Part shown: one piece after another, positions 3,688 through 50,323 of the stretch | How the letters are laid out: each line of letters opens with the position of its first letter | How positions within the stretch are numbered: the stretch's first letter is position 1 | Origin: Natronobacterium gregoryi SP2 | Lineage (GTDB): Archaea; Halobacteriota; Halobacteria; Halobacteriales; Natrialbaceae | Assembly: GCF_000230715.2 (NCBI RefSeq) | Contig: NC_019792.1 | Span: 1,426,001-1,490,000 of the forward strand | Reading direction: 5' to 3' | DNA: 64,000 nt | Position numbers and translations under genes: made by a program | Notes under the pieces: generated by a model | What the model saw: the letters and a program-made list of their open reading frames with translations, nothing else | Databases searched by the model: none | Told to the model about the DNA's origin: nothing

Positions 3688-3848
3688 TACGGTTTGCTGT
3701 CATACGGTTTACTGTAGGTCATTTTCGGCACAACCGCGACCCGGGCGGCGGTTGCGCCGGTAAATCGGTACAGTAATCCGTATCAGTTGTTTCCGGCGCG
3801 ACCGCGCGCTCCTGCGGTCGCGCCGGGACATCGGCACAGCAGTCCGTA
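3688..3848 (+). repeat. Family-A mobile repeat, interrupted by a second copy
   Basis: Outer family-A element with ends TACGGTTTGCTGT (3688) and ACAGCAGTCCGTA (to 3848), flanked by TCG on the left and TCA on the right. It is split after its first 15 bases by another family-A element plus one duplicated TCA (3703-3785); removing that leaves 78 bp, the normal family size. The flanking intervals 3499-3687 and 3849-3940 hold nothing recognisable. Confidence 0.85.
3703..3782 (+). repeat. Family-A mobile repeat, 80 bp, nested copy
   Basis: Ends TACGGTTTACTGT and ACAGTAATCCGTA are a 13-bp inverted repeat with one mismatch; the interior holds a GC-rich hairpin. It is bounded on both sides by TCA (3700-3702 and 3783-3785), a 3-bp duplication generated within the outer copy at 3688-3848. 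This is direct structural evidence of transposition. Confidence 0.88.
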
Positions 3849-16565: not shown

Positions 16566-16568
16566 TGA

Positions 16569-16648
16569 TACGGTTTACTGTAAGTCATTTCCGGCACAAC
16601 CGCGACCCGGGCGGCGGTTGCGCCGGTAAATCGTTACAGTAATCCGTA
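16569..16648 (+). repeat. Family-A repeat, 80 bp, third of a tandem trio
   Basis: Near-perfect copy (ends TACGGTTTACTGT and ACAGTAATCCGTA) almost identical to the nested copy at 3703-3782, flanked by TGA at 16566-16568 and 16649-16651. Hairpin arms CCGGCACAACCGC and GCGGTTGCGCCGG. From 16652 to 17009 I see no gene, only the upstream region of panE. Confidence 0.86.
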
Positions 16649-17009
16649 TGAGTCGTCCGGCACCGCACCCGGAGCGATCGATCGGTGCTGTCGCGGTGTC
16701 CGAGACGGTCGCGGTTCGGTCCTCCGTCGTTTCTCACTCGAGCGATAGTTTTCGACTCTGAGCAGCCTCGTTCCTGGTCTGTCGCTTTTCACCTCACGTG
16801 GCGACCACCCACATTTAGTATATCGGTTATTGGTTTACCCGCTGTGCGAGACGGCACACCGACGACCCGAGATTCGAAACGCCTCTTCCGACAGGAGGCC
16901 GAGACGCGAGACTGCTCGTCGAGTCGGCGGAGAAGACGGCCAATCCCAAGACCCACCCCGGTCGCCGGCGAAGAAAACCGTTTTGAGGGTCGTCCACGGG
17001 ACCGACACC

Positions 17010-19296: not shown

Positions 19297-19426
19297 CGGC
19301 GCGCGAATCGCGGCCGACGGCGGTCCACACCGTCCGTTGTGGCGGCAGGTCGGGATCGGTCGTCGTCGTTCTCGACCAGTAGGTCGCAAGCGACTCGATG
19401 TCGTTCAACGCTCTGTGACTCGCTAG

Positions 19427-19506
19427 TGGCGGGTCAAGCCTGAACTGATGGGTCGAATCTGGCGGTGTGGCTCGATTCGACCCGTCAGTCGACGGTTTGG
19501 ACGGTA
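19427..19506 (+). repeat. Family-B repeat, 80 bp between CTAG sites
   Basis: Exactly 80 bp between CTAG 19423-19426 and CTAG 19507-19510. Interior contains a hairpin with arms TGATGGGTCGAAT and ATTCGACCCGTCA separated by about 16 bases, then GTCGACGGTTTGGACGGTA before the right CTAG. Same orientation as the copies at 35931 and 48263. Confidence 0.83.
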
Positions 19507-19615
19507 CTAGTACTGTCCCAAGTGTGGACCGACTAGTTGAGAGTTGGCCCAAACCGATCACGATTCTCGATCAGAAGTGGGTGGACTAGTCAGAGTAGAC
19601 GTGGGACGATACTAG

Positions 19616-25028: not shown

Positions 25029-25212
25029 TCAGCTAGCGATCCCGACGATCGACTCGCCCCCATCACGAAGAGGACGTGCGTCAACCGCCTCGGGGTCGAG
25101 TGGTTCGCGAGAGCGTCGCTCTCTCGTCATCACGAGACGGTGAAGCCGTCTCGGACGACCCCGAGGCTTGTCAGTGGGCGCACCCTCTAACCGAGTAACT
25201 CGGTAGGTCTGA

Positions 25213-25292
25213 TACGGTTTGCTGTCAGTCAGTTCCGGCGCGACAGCGAGCCCGCCTGCGGTCGCGCCGGGAAATCGGTACAGCATTCCGTT
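25213..25292 (+). repeat. Family-A repeat, 80 bp
   Basis: Ends TACGGTTTGCTGT and ACAGCATTCCGTT flanked by TGA (25210-25212 and 25293-25295). Its right side abuts the TnpB fragment. Confidence 0.86.
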
Positions 25293-25295
25293 TGA

Positions 25296-25440
25296 ATCGA
25301 CCGTTCGCGTTCAACGTCTTTAACTTCAGAGCCAGTTGACTTGTGGCTCGTTCAGAACCAGACTTGAGCCAGTGCTGAACGAGACGCTGCCCGATGTTCC
25401 AAGCGGCGTTAGTCCGGTACAGCCACGTCCCAAAGCGGTT
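25296..25440 (-). pseudogene. Fragment of IS605-family TnpB (C-terminus), caught between two family-A elements
   Basis: On the minus strand the sequence reads FGTWLYRTNAAWNIGQRLVQ, then a short hydrophilic stretch and TSQLALKLKTLNANGRF. The NAAWNIGQRL block resembles the last RuvC motif region of haloarchaeal TnpB (normally preceded by Asp), and LALK...TLNxNG is the usual C-terminal sequence of these proteins. The open frame is truncated at its 5' side by a partial family-A element and at its 3' side by the family-A element at 25213. Nothing else of the transposon, such as tnpA or an omega-RNA boundary, is visible. Confidence 0.6.
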
Positions 25441-36010: not shown

Positions 36011-36014
36011 CTAG

Positions 36015-36094
36015 TGCTTTGGCAAGCCTGAACGGATGAGTGAAACCGAATGCGGTCGTCTGGGTTCACGCATCAGTCGACGCTTGGCGGAGTA
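36015..36094 (+). repeat. Family-B repeat, 80 bp, in tandem with the copy at 35931
   Basis: Exactly 80 bp between CTAG 36011-36014 and CTAG 36095-36098. More diverged than its neighbour but still ends in GTCGACGCTTGGCGGAGTA. From 36114 to 36402 lies the untranslated upstream region of cheD with an AT-rich stretch near 36310. Confidence 0.8.
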
Positions 36095-36402
36095 CTAGTG
36101 ACGGCCATCCGCATCACGCACTGATCGTGGTGCGGCCGGACGACGCAGCATGCACTGGTCGACAGTGACGACGGGAGTCGTCGATACAGTGGCCGCTTAC
36201 TGGAAAGTACTTTCTAGTGACACTAATTCTCCGCCCGGTATGGCGTCTCGGAAGCCACGAGTCGAGCGCCGACGACGGCCTCGGGCATTGTACCGTTGGC
36301 CACCACTGGTAATTATCTTTCACATGACACTGGGAGCGGCCAGAAGTACTACTATCAAGAAGCGACGACCTGCGGTTGCATCGGCGGATCGACGACCCAC
36401 TA

Positions 36403-39624: not shown

Positions 39625-39787
39625 GACGGACTGCTGTACCGCTCTACCGGCGCGACCGTAGACGGGCTCGCGGTCGCGCCGGGACTGATACGGATTACTG
39701 TACCGATTTACCGGCGCAACCGCCGCCCGGGTCGCGGTTGTGCCGAAAATGACCTACAGTAAACCGTATGACTGACACCAAACCGTA
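39625..39787 (-). repeat. Family-A repeat split by a nested copy
   Basis: Flanked by TGA (39622-39624 and 39788-39790). The nested copy and its TGA duplicate (39689-39771) interrupt it; the remaining 80 bp match the reverse complement of the element at 25213-25292. Confidence 0.85.
39689..39768 (-). repeat. Family-A repeat, 80 bp, nested copy
   Basis: Ends TACGGATTACTGT and ACAGTAAACCGTA, TGA on both sides (39686-39688 and 39769-39771). It lies inside the copy 39625-39787 and is nearly identical to the elements at 3703 and 16569 but inverted. Confidence 0.88.
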
Positions 39788-47067: not shown

Positions 47068-48178
47068 GGAATCCGACGCCGGGAGAGCACGGAGCGTCGA
47101 CGACACCATTGCCCGCGCGGACGCGCCGCTGGCCGCGATCGTCGAGAAACCGCAAGCCGAAACTGCGATCGAGTCGCTACGCACCGAAGGCGTCTACGAC
47201 GACTGCCGACAGATCCTCGAGGACGGTCCCGACGAGGTCGCACTCCCAGTCACCGAGACACCGACCGAGACGCAAGTCCTCGAGGTCGTCCGGCAGCTCG
47301 AGCCCAAGTTCCGGACGACGGATCTGGCAGATCTACTTGCCGAACGCGGCTGGAGCGATGCCGACCTCGAGTCGGCTCCGAAGTCGTGGGCCGTGATCGG
47401 CTCAGTCGTCCTCGTCTCCATCCCCGACAACTGTCCGGACGAGAGAGCGGTTGCGGAGGCGTTGCTCGAGTTACACGGCGAGACCGACAGCGTGCTGGCA
47501 AACGAGGGGATCGCAAACGACGGCGAGGCCGGCACCTACAGGGAGCCGAAGACGCGACTGTTGGCTGGTGAGTCGGAGACGGAGACGATCCACACCGAAC
47601 ATGGCACCCGCTACGGACTCGATCCGGCGACCGTGATGTTCTCGCCTGGCAACCAGGCAGAACGGGCACGCATGGGCGAGGTCTGTGCCGAAGACGAACG
47701 CGTCTTCGACATGTTCGCTGGCATCGGCTACTTCACCCTCCCGATGGCTCGCAGCGGCGCACGGGTGACCGCAACCGAGATCAACCCGACCGCGTTCCGG
47801 TACCTGCTCGAGAACGCCGTTCTCAACGACGTCTCGGACCGCGTCGACGCCTACATGACCGACTGCCGGAAGCTCGCTGACGACCTCGAAGCCGATCGCG
47901 TGGTGATGGGCTACTACGGCACTAGCGAGGACGACTCGAGCCAGCGCCGCGACGAGGCACACGACTTCCTTCCCGAAGCCCTCGAGGCGCTCGTTCCTGG
48001 TGGGATCGTCCACTATCACGAGGCGACGCCGGAGGCACTGCTCTGGGAACGGCCGACAGAGAGACTCGAGGAGGCGGTCGACGGGGCTGGCAGAACGCTC
48101 GAGTATCTCGATCGGCGACGTATAAAGAGTCACAGTGCAGGCGTCGAACACGTCGTTCTCGACGTCCGTATCGACTGA
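47060..48178 (+). CDS. Trm5/Taw2-type tRNA-modifying enzyme
   Basis: 372-residue class I SAM-dependent enzyme of the Trm5/TYW2 family that modifies tRNA at guanosine 37. It has an N-terminal domain (LEPKFRTTDLADLLAERGWS), a connector with FSPGNQAERARMGEV, SAM-binding motif I FDMFAGIGYFTLPMARSG, and TEINPTAFRYLLENAVLND. Instead of the NLP motif of a methyltransferase such as Trm5, the catalytic-loop position reads VVMGYYGTSEDDS, which suggests the Taw2 (wyosine aminocarboxypropyl) branch. It overlaps nmd3 by 8 bp. Its TGA stop codon (48176-48178) is the target triplet of a family-A repeat. Confidence 0.85.
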   Translation: MGEESDAGRARSVDDTIARADAPLAAIVEKPQAETAIESLRTEGVYDDCRQILEDGPDEVALPVTETPTETQVLEVVRQLEPKFRTTDLADLLAERGWSDADLESAPKSWAVIGSVVLVSIPDNCPDERAVAEALLELHGETDSVLANEGIANDGEAGTYREPKTRLLAGESETETIHTEHGTRYGLDPATVMFSPGNQAERARMGEVCAEDERVFDMFAGIGYFTLPMARSGARVTATEINPTAFRYLLENAVLNDVSDRVDAYMTDCRKLADDLEADRVVMGYYGTSEDDSSQRRDEAHDFLPEALEALVPGGIVHYHEATPEALLWERPTERLEEAVDGAGRTLEYLDRRRIKSHSAGVEHVVLDVRID

Positions 48179-48258
48179 TTCGGTTTGCTGTCGGTCAGTG
48201 CCGGTGCGACCGCGAGCCAGCCTGCGGTCGCGCCGGGACATCGATACAGTATTCCGTA
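48179..48258 (+). repeat. Family-A repeat, 80 bp, on a stop codon
   Basis: Begins TTCGGTTTGCTGT directly after the TGA stop codon at 48176-48178 and ends ACAGTATTCCGTA, followed by TGA 48259-48261. The duplicated triplet is therefore the stop codon itself. Confidence 0.88.
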
Positions 48259-48262
48259 TGAG

Positions 48263-48342
48263 TGACACCCCTGCCCTGCACTGACGGGTCGAACCTGGTT
48301 GCGTCGGTCGGTTCGGCTCGGCAGTCGACGGTTGGAACGGTA
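48263..48342 (+). repeat. Family-B repeat, 80 bp, next to the family-A copy
   Basis: 80 bp with decayed flanking sites TGAG and CTGG in place of CTAG. Core GACGGGTCGAACCTGG, ... GCAGTCGACGGTTGGAACGGTA. From 48343 to 48507 no gene is recognised. Confidence 0.72.
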
Positions 48343-48507
48343 CTGGGTCAGCCGTCGCTGGGCGATTCACACGGTCTGTTGTCGTCGAGTACAGCGATGG
48401 TCGACCGTCGACTGGCGATCGGCGGTAAACGGAGACAGCGAACCGCGACAGTCCACCCCGAAACCATCATCGGCAACGCCAGGTCGATTCACGTACCGAA
48501 CGGACGA

Positions 48508-49395
48508 TCAGACGAGCCCACTGATAAAGGCGAGTCCCATCCCAACCAGAACGATCGCCGTGATCGTCGGCAGGTACGGCGTGATCCGCTCGACTCGCTC
48601 CCGGTGGCGTTCGTACCCTGCGATCAAAAGCAGTGTCGGAACGACGATTGCGACGATCACTGCCAGCGAGTAGAGCAACATCAACTCGAGACAGGCCTCC
48701 GTCCCGACGCAGATTGCCAGGATCTGGATCGGCTCCTCGTGGGCAAAGCCAAGCAGTAATGCCGTCAATCCGAGCGCCGCCAGTCCGCGCTCGGCGTGTT
48801 CTTCGTCCAGATGCTCGTGGCCGCCACCGCCAGGAAGAACGCTCCGGGTTCGCTCGAGGATGCCGCCGTCTGTGTGTGCGTGGTGGTCGCCGTCTGTGTG
48901 TGCGTGGTGGTCGCCGTCTGTGTGTGCGTGGTGGTCGTCGTCTGTGTGTGCGTGGTGGTCGTCGTCTGTGTGTGCGTGGTGGTCGTCGTCTGTGTGTGCG
49001 TGGTGATCGTCGTCTGTGTGTGCGTGGTGGTCGTCGTCTGTGTGTGCGTGGTGGTCGTCGTCTTCCCGTTTGTCGTGTCCGTTCTCGTGAAGGTGGGTGT
49101 GACTGCCGTTTCGGTACTCGTGGATACCGAGCAGGATCAACAGCGTCCCGGCGAGATACCGCATCCACGGCCCTTCCGCGAACTCGGCGAACGTGCTAAA
49201 CCAGTAGTATGCGAGCACGAGAACGACGCTGCTTATCAGGTGGCCAACCCCGAGGATCAGCGCCGCGAGTAGGCCGTACAGCAGGTGGCGACTCCGGTTT
49301 AGTGCGTACATCGCCGCAATCGGCCAGCCGTGATCGGGCAACACGCCGTGGACGAATCCGATAACGATCACACCAGCGACGATGCCGAGTTCCAT
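48508..49395 (-). CDS. Nickel/cobalt permease-like membrane protein with histidine-rich tandem repeat loop
   Basis: 295-residue membrane protein related to NiCoT/UreH/RcnA-type nickel or cobalt transporters. The family's H-x4-D-H motif is at residues 16-22 (GFVHGVLPDHGWPI). Helices flank a large hydrophilic loop (about residues 96-185) that contains eight copies of an 8-residue unit (D[DG]DHHAHT), giving dozens of metal-ligating histidines and aspartates, after an HTHLHENGHD stretch. A later helix has AHEEPIQILAICVGTE, typical of the family. A regulatory or export role is possible; direction of transport is not determined by sequence. Starts ATG 49395. Confidence 0.86.
   Translation of the reverse strand: MELGIVAGVIVIGFVHGVLPDHGWPIAAMYALNRSRHLLYGLLAALILGVGHLISSVVLVLAYYWFSTFAEFAEGPWMRYLAGTLLILLGIHEYRNGSHTHLHENGHDKREDDDHHAHTDDDHHAHTDDDHHAHTDDDHHAHTDDDHHAHTDDDHHAHTDGDHHAHTDGDHHAHTDGGILERTRSVLPGGGGHEHLDEEHAERGLAALGLTALLLGFAHEEPIQILAICVGTEACLELMLLYSLAVIVAIVVPTLLLIAGYERHRERVERITPYLPTITAIVLVGMGLAFISGLV
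48868..49062 (-). repeat. In-frame 24-bp minisatellite (8 copies)
   Basis: Eight near-identical 24-bp units inside the permease gene, encoding D[DG]DHHAHT; the two units nearest the C-terminus have DGD, the other six DDD. The near-identity of the copies implies recent expansion or frequent homogenisation, so length variation between strains is likely. Confidence 0.9.
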
Positions 49396-49499
49396 ACGTG
49401 CTCGAGGGTGCTGTCAGAGTAAACCAGTTGTTATGATCGGTTTCAGGGAGTCGTAATACCGATATTAGAGACTAACAACGAGAATGAGTGCGCTGCTAG

Positions 49500-49657
49500 T
49501 ACCGTTTCGGACGGATTGCTGGACCCGACCCCAGTGAAACCGCTTCGGACGCGGCTACACCGGCCTGACGGGCAGGAACCCATCTCGATCGTCGGCTGTG
49601 AAGTCGGGCTGGCCCACACGACCAGGTTCGACCCATCAGCGCGGGCGTAGCCCGCCA
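49500..49657 (-). repeat. Family-B repeat interrupted by a family-A element
   Basis: Lies between CTAG 49496-49499 and CTAG 49658-49661. Ten bases at the left end (TACCGTTTCG), then an inserted family-A element plus a TCG duplicate (49510-49587), then 70 bases. Without the insert the length is exactly 80 bp. Confidence 0.82.
49510..49584 (-). repeat. Family-A related repeat nested in family B
   Basis: Begins GACGGATTGCTGG and ends CAGGAACCCATC with TCG on each side (49507-49509 and 49585-49587). 75 bp, strongly diverged. Its TCG target is one base off the usual TCA. Confidence 0.65.
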
Positions 49658-49661
49658 CTAG

Positions 49662-49741
49662 TACCGTCCCAACCGTCGACTGACGGGTCGAATCGAGCCA
49701 CACCGCCAGATTCGACCCATCAGTTCAGGCTTGGTCTGCCA
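49662..49741 (-). repeat. Family-B repeat, 80 bp, at the end of a gene
   Basis: Exactly 80 bp between CTAG 49658-49661 and CTAG 49742-49745. The right CTAG contains the TAG stop codon (complement at 49742-49744) of the minus-strand gene at 49742-50323. Confidence 0.86.
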
Positions 49742-50323
49742 CTAGTTCCCGTCACTGTACTCGTACTCCGCCTCCGGATCGTCGACGCCCTCCGTCCGCG
49801 AGCCGACCCAGGCTCCCAGCGCGATGCCGTAGACGAGGTGGCCGGCGTGAAACAACGCGAGCTCGTCGCTCTCGAGTCGGATATCGAGCAGTTCCCGGAG
49901 CAAGAGCTGTGAGCCGAGCGCCGACAGCGCCAGTCCGTACACTGACCCCCAGACGAGGCCACGCTGTTCGGGTTCGATCGATCGTTCGGCGTCCTGTAAC
50001 GCAAAAAGTCCTCCGAAGATTGCGCCAGCCTGCGTTCCATACGCGAGATGTAAGCCGAGGCCGGCGACCGGATGATCGCCTGGGTCACCACCCGAAACGT
50101 ACTGCGCCCAGAAGTTCGCTGACGGTGGCAGCGACCGCAAGACCGGAAGCCGAAACGCCGTCATAATCAGCGTCGCGACGAATCCGGCCTGGAGACCGCG
50201 GACCGCGGCGTAGGCCGCGTGCTCGAGTCGAGATCGTTCGTCAGTCTCCTCGGTTCGATCGTCGGGGTCACCGGCAGGCCGAAGCCGTCGCAGCCGGTCG
50301 GGAACGGAAAGCGATGTGGACAT
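49742..50323 (-). CDS. Haloarchaeal membrane protein of unknown function
   Basis: 193-residue protein with a cytoplasmic N-terminus (residues 1-45, rich in Asp/Arg) and about four membrane segments: GLQAGFVATLIMTAFRLPVL, LAYGTQAGAIFGGLFAL, GLVWGSVYGLALSALGSQLL and ALFHAGHLVYGIALGAWVGS. The paired G-x-x-x-G and histidines in HLAYG and HAGHLVYG resemble the small DUF1440/YagU-like membrane proteins, but I do not assign it. It uses a TAG stop within the CTAG flanking a family-B repeat. Confidence 0.72.
   Translation of the reverse strand: MSTSLSVPDRLRRLRPAGDPDDRTEETDERSRLEHAAYAAVRGLQAGFVATLIMTAFRLPVLRSLPPSANFWAQYVSGGDPGDHPVAGLGLHLAYGTQAGAIFGGLFALQDAERSIEPEQRGLVWGSVYGLALSALGSQLLLRELLDIRLESDELALFHAGHLVYGIALGAWVGSRTEGVDDPEAEYEYSDGN

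Follow-up and report, generated by a model that had tools for sequence, protein, structure and literature searches.

We have found that a short repeat of Natronobacterium gregoryi SP2, here called family B, is very probably a MITE that an insertion sequence of the IS630/Tc1-mariner family mobilizes in trans. An intact copy lies on the forward strand at positions 49658–49745 of the window (the whole 64,000-nucleotide stretch that was analyzed). Its form, CTAG-N80-CTAG, was established from BLAST copies and from its structure, with an empty-site comparison taken from another locus. Each CTAG of this unit is most likely C-TA-G, which makes the element 82 bp long (49661–49742) rather than 80 bp and places it between the TA duplicates 49659–49660 and 49743–49744. 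It is preceded by an older, interrupted copy, so that the CTAGs of the pair start at 49496, 49658 and 49742. The last one contains, as the initial annotation had pointed out, the TAG stop codon of the neighboring gene (49742–50323, minus strand, 193 aa).

Copies of family B and its sister families

The genome to which the window belongs is a single contig of 3,788,356 bp. Searches and fetched stretches, on which all the family counts rest, gave about 40 full-length family-B copies with 95–100% identity, plus diverged ones (the best 40 of 163 candidates). The left-end motif of B, which is common to family C, had 196 matches in the genome at no more than two mismatches, while the reversed control had one. 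Family B is short and devoid of coding capacity, with a near-constant 80 bp between CTAGs. This length and these borders had been predicted for the remaining copies, and with few exceptions the BLAST copies were indeed 88-bp units running from CTAG to CTAG. They are often found in tandem, in steps of 84 bp and in either orientation, within arrays that mix B1, the sister B2 (TACTCCGCCAAGC...GCCAAAGCA) and family C, a 106-bp repeat with CTAGs located 26 bases inside each end.

The window contains several other examples. A family-B unit on the minus strand at 19423–19510 shares about 96% identity with the intact copy, and adjoining it there is a family-C-type unit (19507–19615), assigned by its end matches, the positions of its CTAGs (19507, 19533, 19586 and 19612) and the 26-53-26 spacing of the C layout. 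Another CTAG-bounded family-B unit (36011–36098) and a diverged copy with 77% identity (48261–48344) are also on the minus strand.

Among 41 genomes that were searched, 14 contained family B, counting the own genome, and all but one of these 14 belong to the same archaeal family. When public genomes were scanned for the exact pattern, 26 loci were detected, in Natrarchaeobius, Natronolimnohabitans, Natrialba, Salinadaptatus, Halostagnicola and Halobiforma. A few matches were found in haloarchaeal plasmids, and none in the phage records or viral contigs searched. Some copies have become associated with other sequences. In Halobiforma haloterrestris (L149, G002:C15:219500–226000) a nest of decayed insertion sequences of ~4.5 kb lies between two B-type units, and at the matching place Halobiforma lacisalsi has a single B unit. 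Another short repeat (AGTAACAACTGCAAC...) was found in or beside the B copies at L045 and L059.

Target site and empty sites

The initial annotation had suggested looking in relatives for an empty site with a single CTAG. Such a site was found in two genomes, G080 and G023, at a B copy other than the one at 49658. It reads CACCTAGTTCG in G080 and AACCTAGTCCG in G023, and CACCTAG-B-CTAGTTCG in the filled genome. Over a longer alignment the empty sites are GCACTGCAC-CTAG-TTCGACC (G080) and GGATCGAAC-CTAG-TCCGACC (G023), and the filled one (L106, Natrialba swarupiae) is GCACTGCAC-CTAG-B-CTAG-TTCGACC. The base preceding TA was C at 75 of the 79 outer left array edges. On the right, TA was followed by G in 121 of 124 cases, a count that also takes in array-internal junctions. 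The CTAG target itself is therefore seen, and in the B copies alone a 2-bp duplication (TA) looks the same as a 4-bp one (CTAG).

The word CTAG is avoided in haloarchaea, and a conserved orphan methylase has it as its motif (PMC6471742). Its link to a transposon family makes the effect of methylation on transposition open to experiment. The window has 38 CTAGs, where base composition would predict 219 and a second-order model 70, and 9 of these 38 were scored as ends of families B or C.

Insertions were found at TAG stop codons more often than other CTAGs were. Of 104 flanks in the own genome, 24 carry a GC3-rich ORF, 100 codons or longer, that stops with the TAG of the junction, the other frames giving 3 and 2. 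At CTAGs without an element the figure was 9 of 198 (odds 6.3, p 2.6e-6), these 198 coming from the stretches fetched around repeats and IS copies and not from a random genome sample. For two conserved genes with a B copy, the relatives stop at the same codon, several of them with a natural CTAG and no element, indicating that these two genes have not been truncated. The downstream flanks of these relatives could not be aligned.

IS630 elements with B-like ends

In the genome G002 a decayed transposase gene is found beside a B copy and ends in a CTAG next to CTAGTACTTTCCCAAGTGTTGAGTGACTAG. Only by searching with this sequence did the partner elements surface. Its homologues in the same archaeal family are CTAG-bounded IS630 elements of 1211–1212 bp, with one of 1509 bp. 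Ends shared with family B were found in L216, L220, L221 and L224. Those of L221 (CTAGTACCGTCCCAACCGTGGACAG) and L224 (CTAGTACCGTCCCAACCGTCGAGTGA) can be compared with that of B (CTAGTACCGTCCCAACCGTCGACTGA), the first 23 bases agreeing at up to 22 positions. Further ends of CTAG-bounded elements of ~1.2 kb were CTAGTACCGTCCCAACCGTGGACAGCTAG, CTAGTACCGTCCCAACCGTCGAGTGACTAG and similar. The partner transposase is coded in two frames. Its halves matched the NCBIfam IS630 model (3.5e-43 and 4.2e-18) and the second one also Pfam DDE_3 (1.7e-27); HTH domains were matched as well, and plasmid records annotate such genes as IS630 family transposase. Among the first DDE_3 matches, several IS630 subgroups were rejected as partners, their ends being different.

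Family C shares its first ~47 bases with the end of an IS630 transposase relic (L208) that is present in the window's own genome. A protein search of this genome at 1e-10 gave no intact IS630 with B-like ends, the ends of the L208 relic being of the C type, and the other IS630 groups present have different ends and no CTAG context. The B copies are nonetheless 97–98% identical, which calls for a partner that was recently lost, a diverged partner, or gene conversion, and family B may now be stranded in this genome.

A different IS630 subgroup provides a view of the duplication itself. In G001 it is found within the terminal CTAG of a B copy, where CCACTAG-CTCGAG has become CCACTA-[IS]-TAGCTCGAG. 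This junction indicates that TA, not CTAG, was duplicated by this subgroup. The element, with ends TAGTAGNCGTTAG, was located at L169 (G001:C1:3902043–3905459) and probably also at L034 and L041; G002 (L060) has the exact empty site for the L169 insertion. IS630 is cited as preferring TA within 5'-CTAG-3' (Tenzen and Ohtsubo, 1991, as listed in PMC2170065), and ISY100, of the IS630 family, inserts in vitro by cut-and-paste into TA with TA duplication (PMC2170065).

From these data we infer that family B, a gene-less DNA element with imperfect terminal inverted repeats and most likely 82 bp long, is mobilized by cut-and-paste by a DDE transposase of the IS630 type supplied in trans. The transposase would join the ends of B to the TA of a CTAG, and repair would then duplicate the TA. 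Every insertion would leave a CTAG on either side, and as each copy offers two new targets, tandem arrays with 84-bp steps in either orientation would be generated. This is a clean case of an element recreating its own target at both ends and giving rise to ordered arrays. It is also a clean case of insertion at a stop codon free of damage to the gene. Insertion at a CTAG that holds a TAG stop keeps the stop, so that the surviving insertions would concentrate there, those disrupting genes presumably having been purged.

The hairpin and alternative explanations

The 80-mer of family B has two imperfect inverted arms of ~33 bp and a 14-base loop. In the intact copy, the terminal inverted repeats form a predicted imperfect hairpin on the plus strand (49665–49738), with an outer stem at 49665–49674/49729–49738 and an inner one at 49680–49694/49709–49723. 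When 25 diverse copies were compared, 85.3% of the pairs proposed were formed, and both sides had changed in 13 of the 25 pairs. The covariation score was 0.263 vs. 0.124 after shuffling and 0.039–0.121 in slid controls, and the predicted DNA fold had z values of -3.3 on the plus strand and -5.8 on the minus strand. A near-palindromic transposon with equally constrained ends would yield such covariation in the absence of any RNA role. Rfam gave no match anywhere in the window. The conserved mismatches made us consider an attC-like folded recombination site, which was rejected since nothing cassette-like was seen and the structure is accounted for by the IS630 ends.

The conserved hairpin, with its strand-asymmetric mismatches and a fixed tetranucleotide beside it, would also fit an element of the REP or PATE type, for which an HUH transposase of the IS200/IS605 type (Y1 TnpA or RAYT) would recognize the single-stranded hairpin plus CTAG, and PATEs are known in the haloarchaeon Haloquadratum walsbyi (PMC3119063). 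We consider this origin highly improbable, given that the own genome has only three decayed Y1 fragments, one of them broken by a stop, that B-like ends occur on IS630 elements instead, and that PATEs have neither terminal inverted repeats nor target duplications (PMC3119063), whereas B has both. The presence of a family-C copy immediately upstream of one broken gene for a Y1 transposase (L031, G000:C1:3033088–3036339) was judged a coincidence.

There is similarly very little chance that B is a functional repeat maintained by the host, for example as a 3'-end hairpin or terminator cassette, and spread by gene conversion and not by transposition. The compensatory changes that keep the hairpin across genera, and the many copies located exactly at natural stop codons, would fit such a repeat. 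However, the precise single-CTAG empty sites, the tandem reinsertion into its own CTAGs, the IS630-type ends and gene neighbors that differ between genomes all speak against it, and near-palindromic ends would suffice to keep a hairpin. That B is a MITE belonging to a different DDE family and duplicates all 4 bp of CTAG, which B copies by themselves would allow, is hardly credible at all when the matching ends sit on IS630 elements and family C continues into the IS630 relic of the own genome.

A partial domestication of family B is conceivable but unlikely. Insertions at stop codons would have given many haloarchaeal genes a standard 3' hairpin, which selection on transcript ends, and not only transposition, would keep by compensatory change. 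If this were true, the avoided and methylated CTAG word would become a set of safe landing sites.

Comparison with known elements

A TA duplication is characteristic of the Correia and ERIC elements. Like B, these are short MITEs with hairpin potential near genes, although in different hosts (PMC10969869). The IS630 family resembles the partners of B in its ends, its DDE_3 transposase and the choice of TA within CTAG, but family B itself is 82 bp long and has no transposase, and the partners of B come from haloarchaea and use two coding frames. RUP of Streptococcus pneumoniae (107 bp, with ends like those of IS630-Spn1) is also short, gene-less and present in high copy number, its proposed mode of movement is mobilization in trans by an IS630 element, and it forms clusters of copies inserted into one another (PMC3049150). 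It differs in sequence and host, and B has in addition the ordered 84-bp CTAG arrays and the placement at TAG stops. The PATEs and SMRs of H. walsbyi are, as B is, short haloarchaeal repeats free of transposase genes that are invaded by mobile elements, but PATEs are related to IS605 and no transposon ends match the SMRs (PMC3119063), while B matches those of IS630. Archaeal IS and MITEs have been surveyed (PMC3852290), and our literature search found no paper joining IS630, MITE and haloarchaea. Family B thus adds a new member to a type of element already known, one that may have been described earlier.

The interrupted copy and family A

The older family-B copy (49496–49661, plus strand) consists of a CTAG at 49496–49499, a left part from 49500, a right part to 49657 and the CTAG at 49658–49661 that it shares with the intact unit. 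Between the two CTAGs there are 158 bases, and removing 78 of them leaves 80, as had been calculated in the initial annotation. These 80 bases align end to end with the intact copy (49662–49741) at 55 of 80 positions, ungapped; 2000 shuffles, each of which was also given its best cut point, did not exceed 39. The excision point is not fixed to the base: 55–56 matches are obtained when anything from 2 to 10 bases is kept on the left.

The insert had been ascribed to family A, a group of palindromic repeats of ~80 bp (TACGGWTTRCTGTA...TACAGYAAWCCGTA). At least 40 copies with 93–100% identity are found in the genome, among them those in the window at 3699–3787, 16568–16654, 25212–25300, 39684–39772 and 48178–48266. 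Identical TGA or TCA triplets flanked all 16 distinct copies inspected, a set of 12 plus four further ones from the window, which indicates that A is a MITE-like family of its own that duplicates 3 bp of its target. The insert (49510–49584 on the plus strand, ~75 bp) is probably a decayed member. It has TCG on both sides (49507–49509 and 49585–49587), presumably a 3-bp target duplication, whereas family-A copies have TGA or TCA. Its identity to the consensus was 62% over 77 bases. The alignment score, 10.5, is above the shuffled mean (2.3, sd 1.7) and equal to the best of 300 shuffles. The assignment of this insert to family A therefore has moderate support. The independence of the two families is supported, each being multicopy on its own in the genome and having different ends and different duplications. 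The proposed order of arrival at 49500–49657, with B first, is supported as well, as the insert sits within a decayed B copy.

Close to this pair, a 24-bp tandem repeat with about 10 copies is found at 48855–49082. It encodes a DDDHHAHT repeat within a predicted membrane protein (ORF 48508–49395, minus strand), and this stretch looks like a histidine/aspartate-rich metal-binding region.
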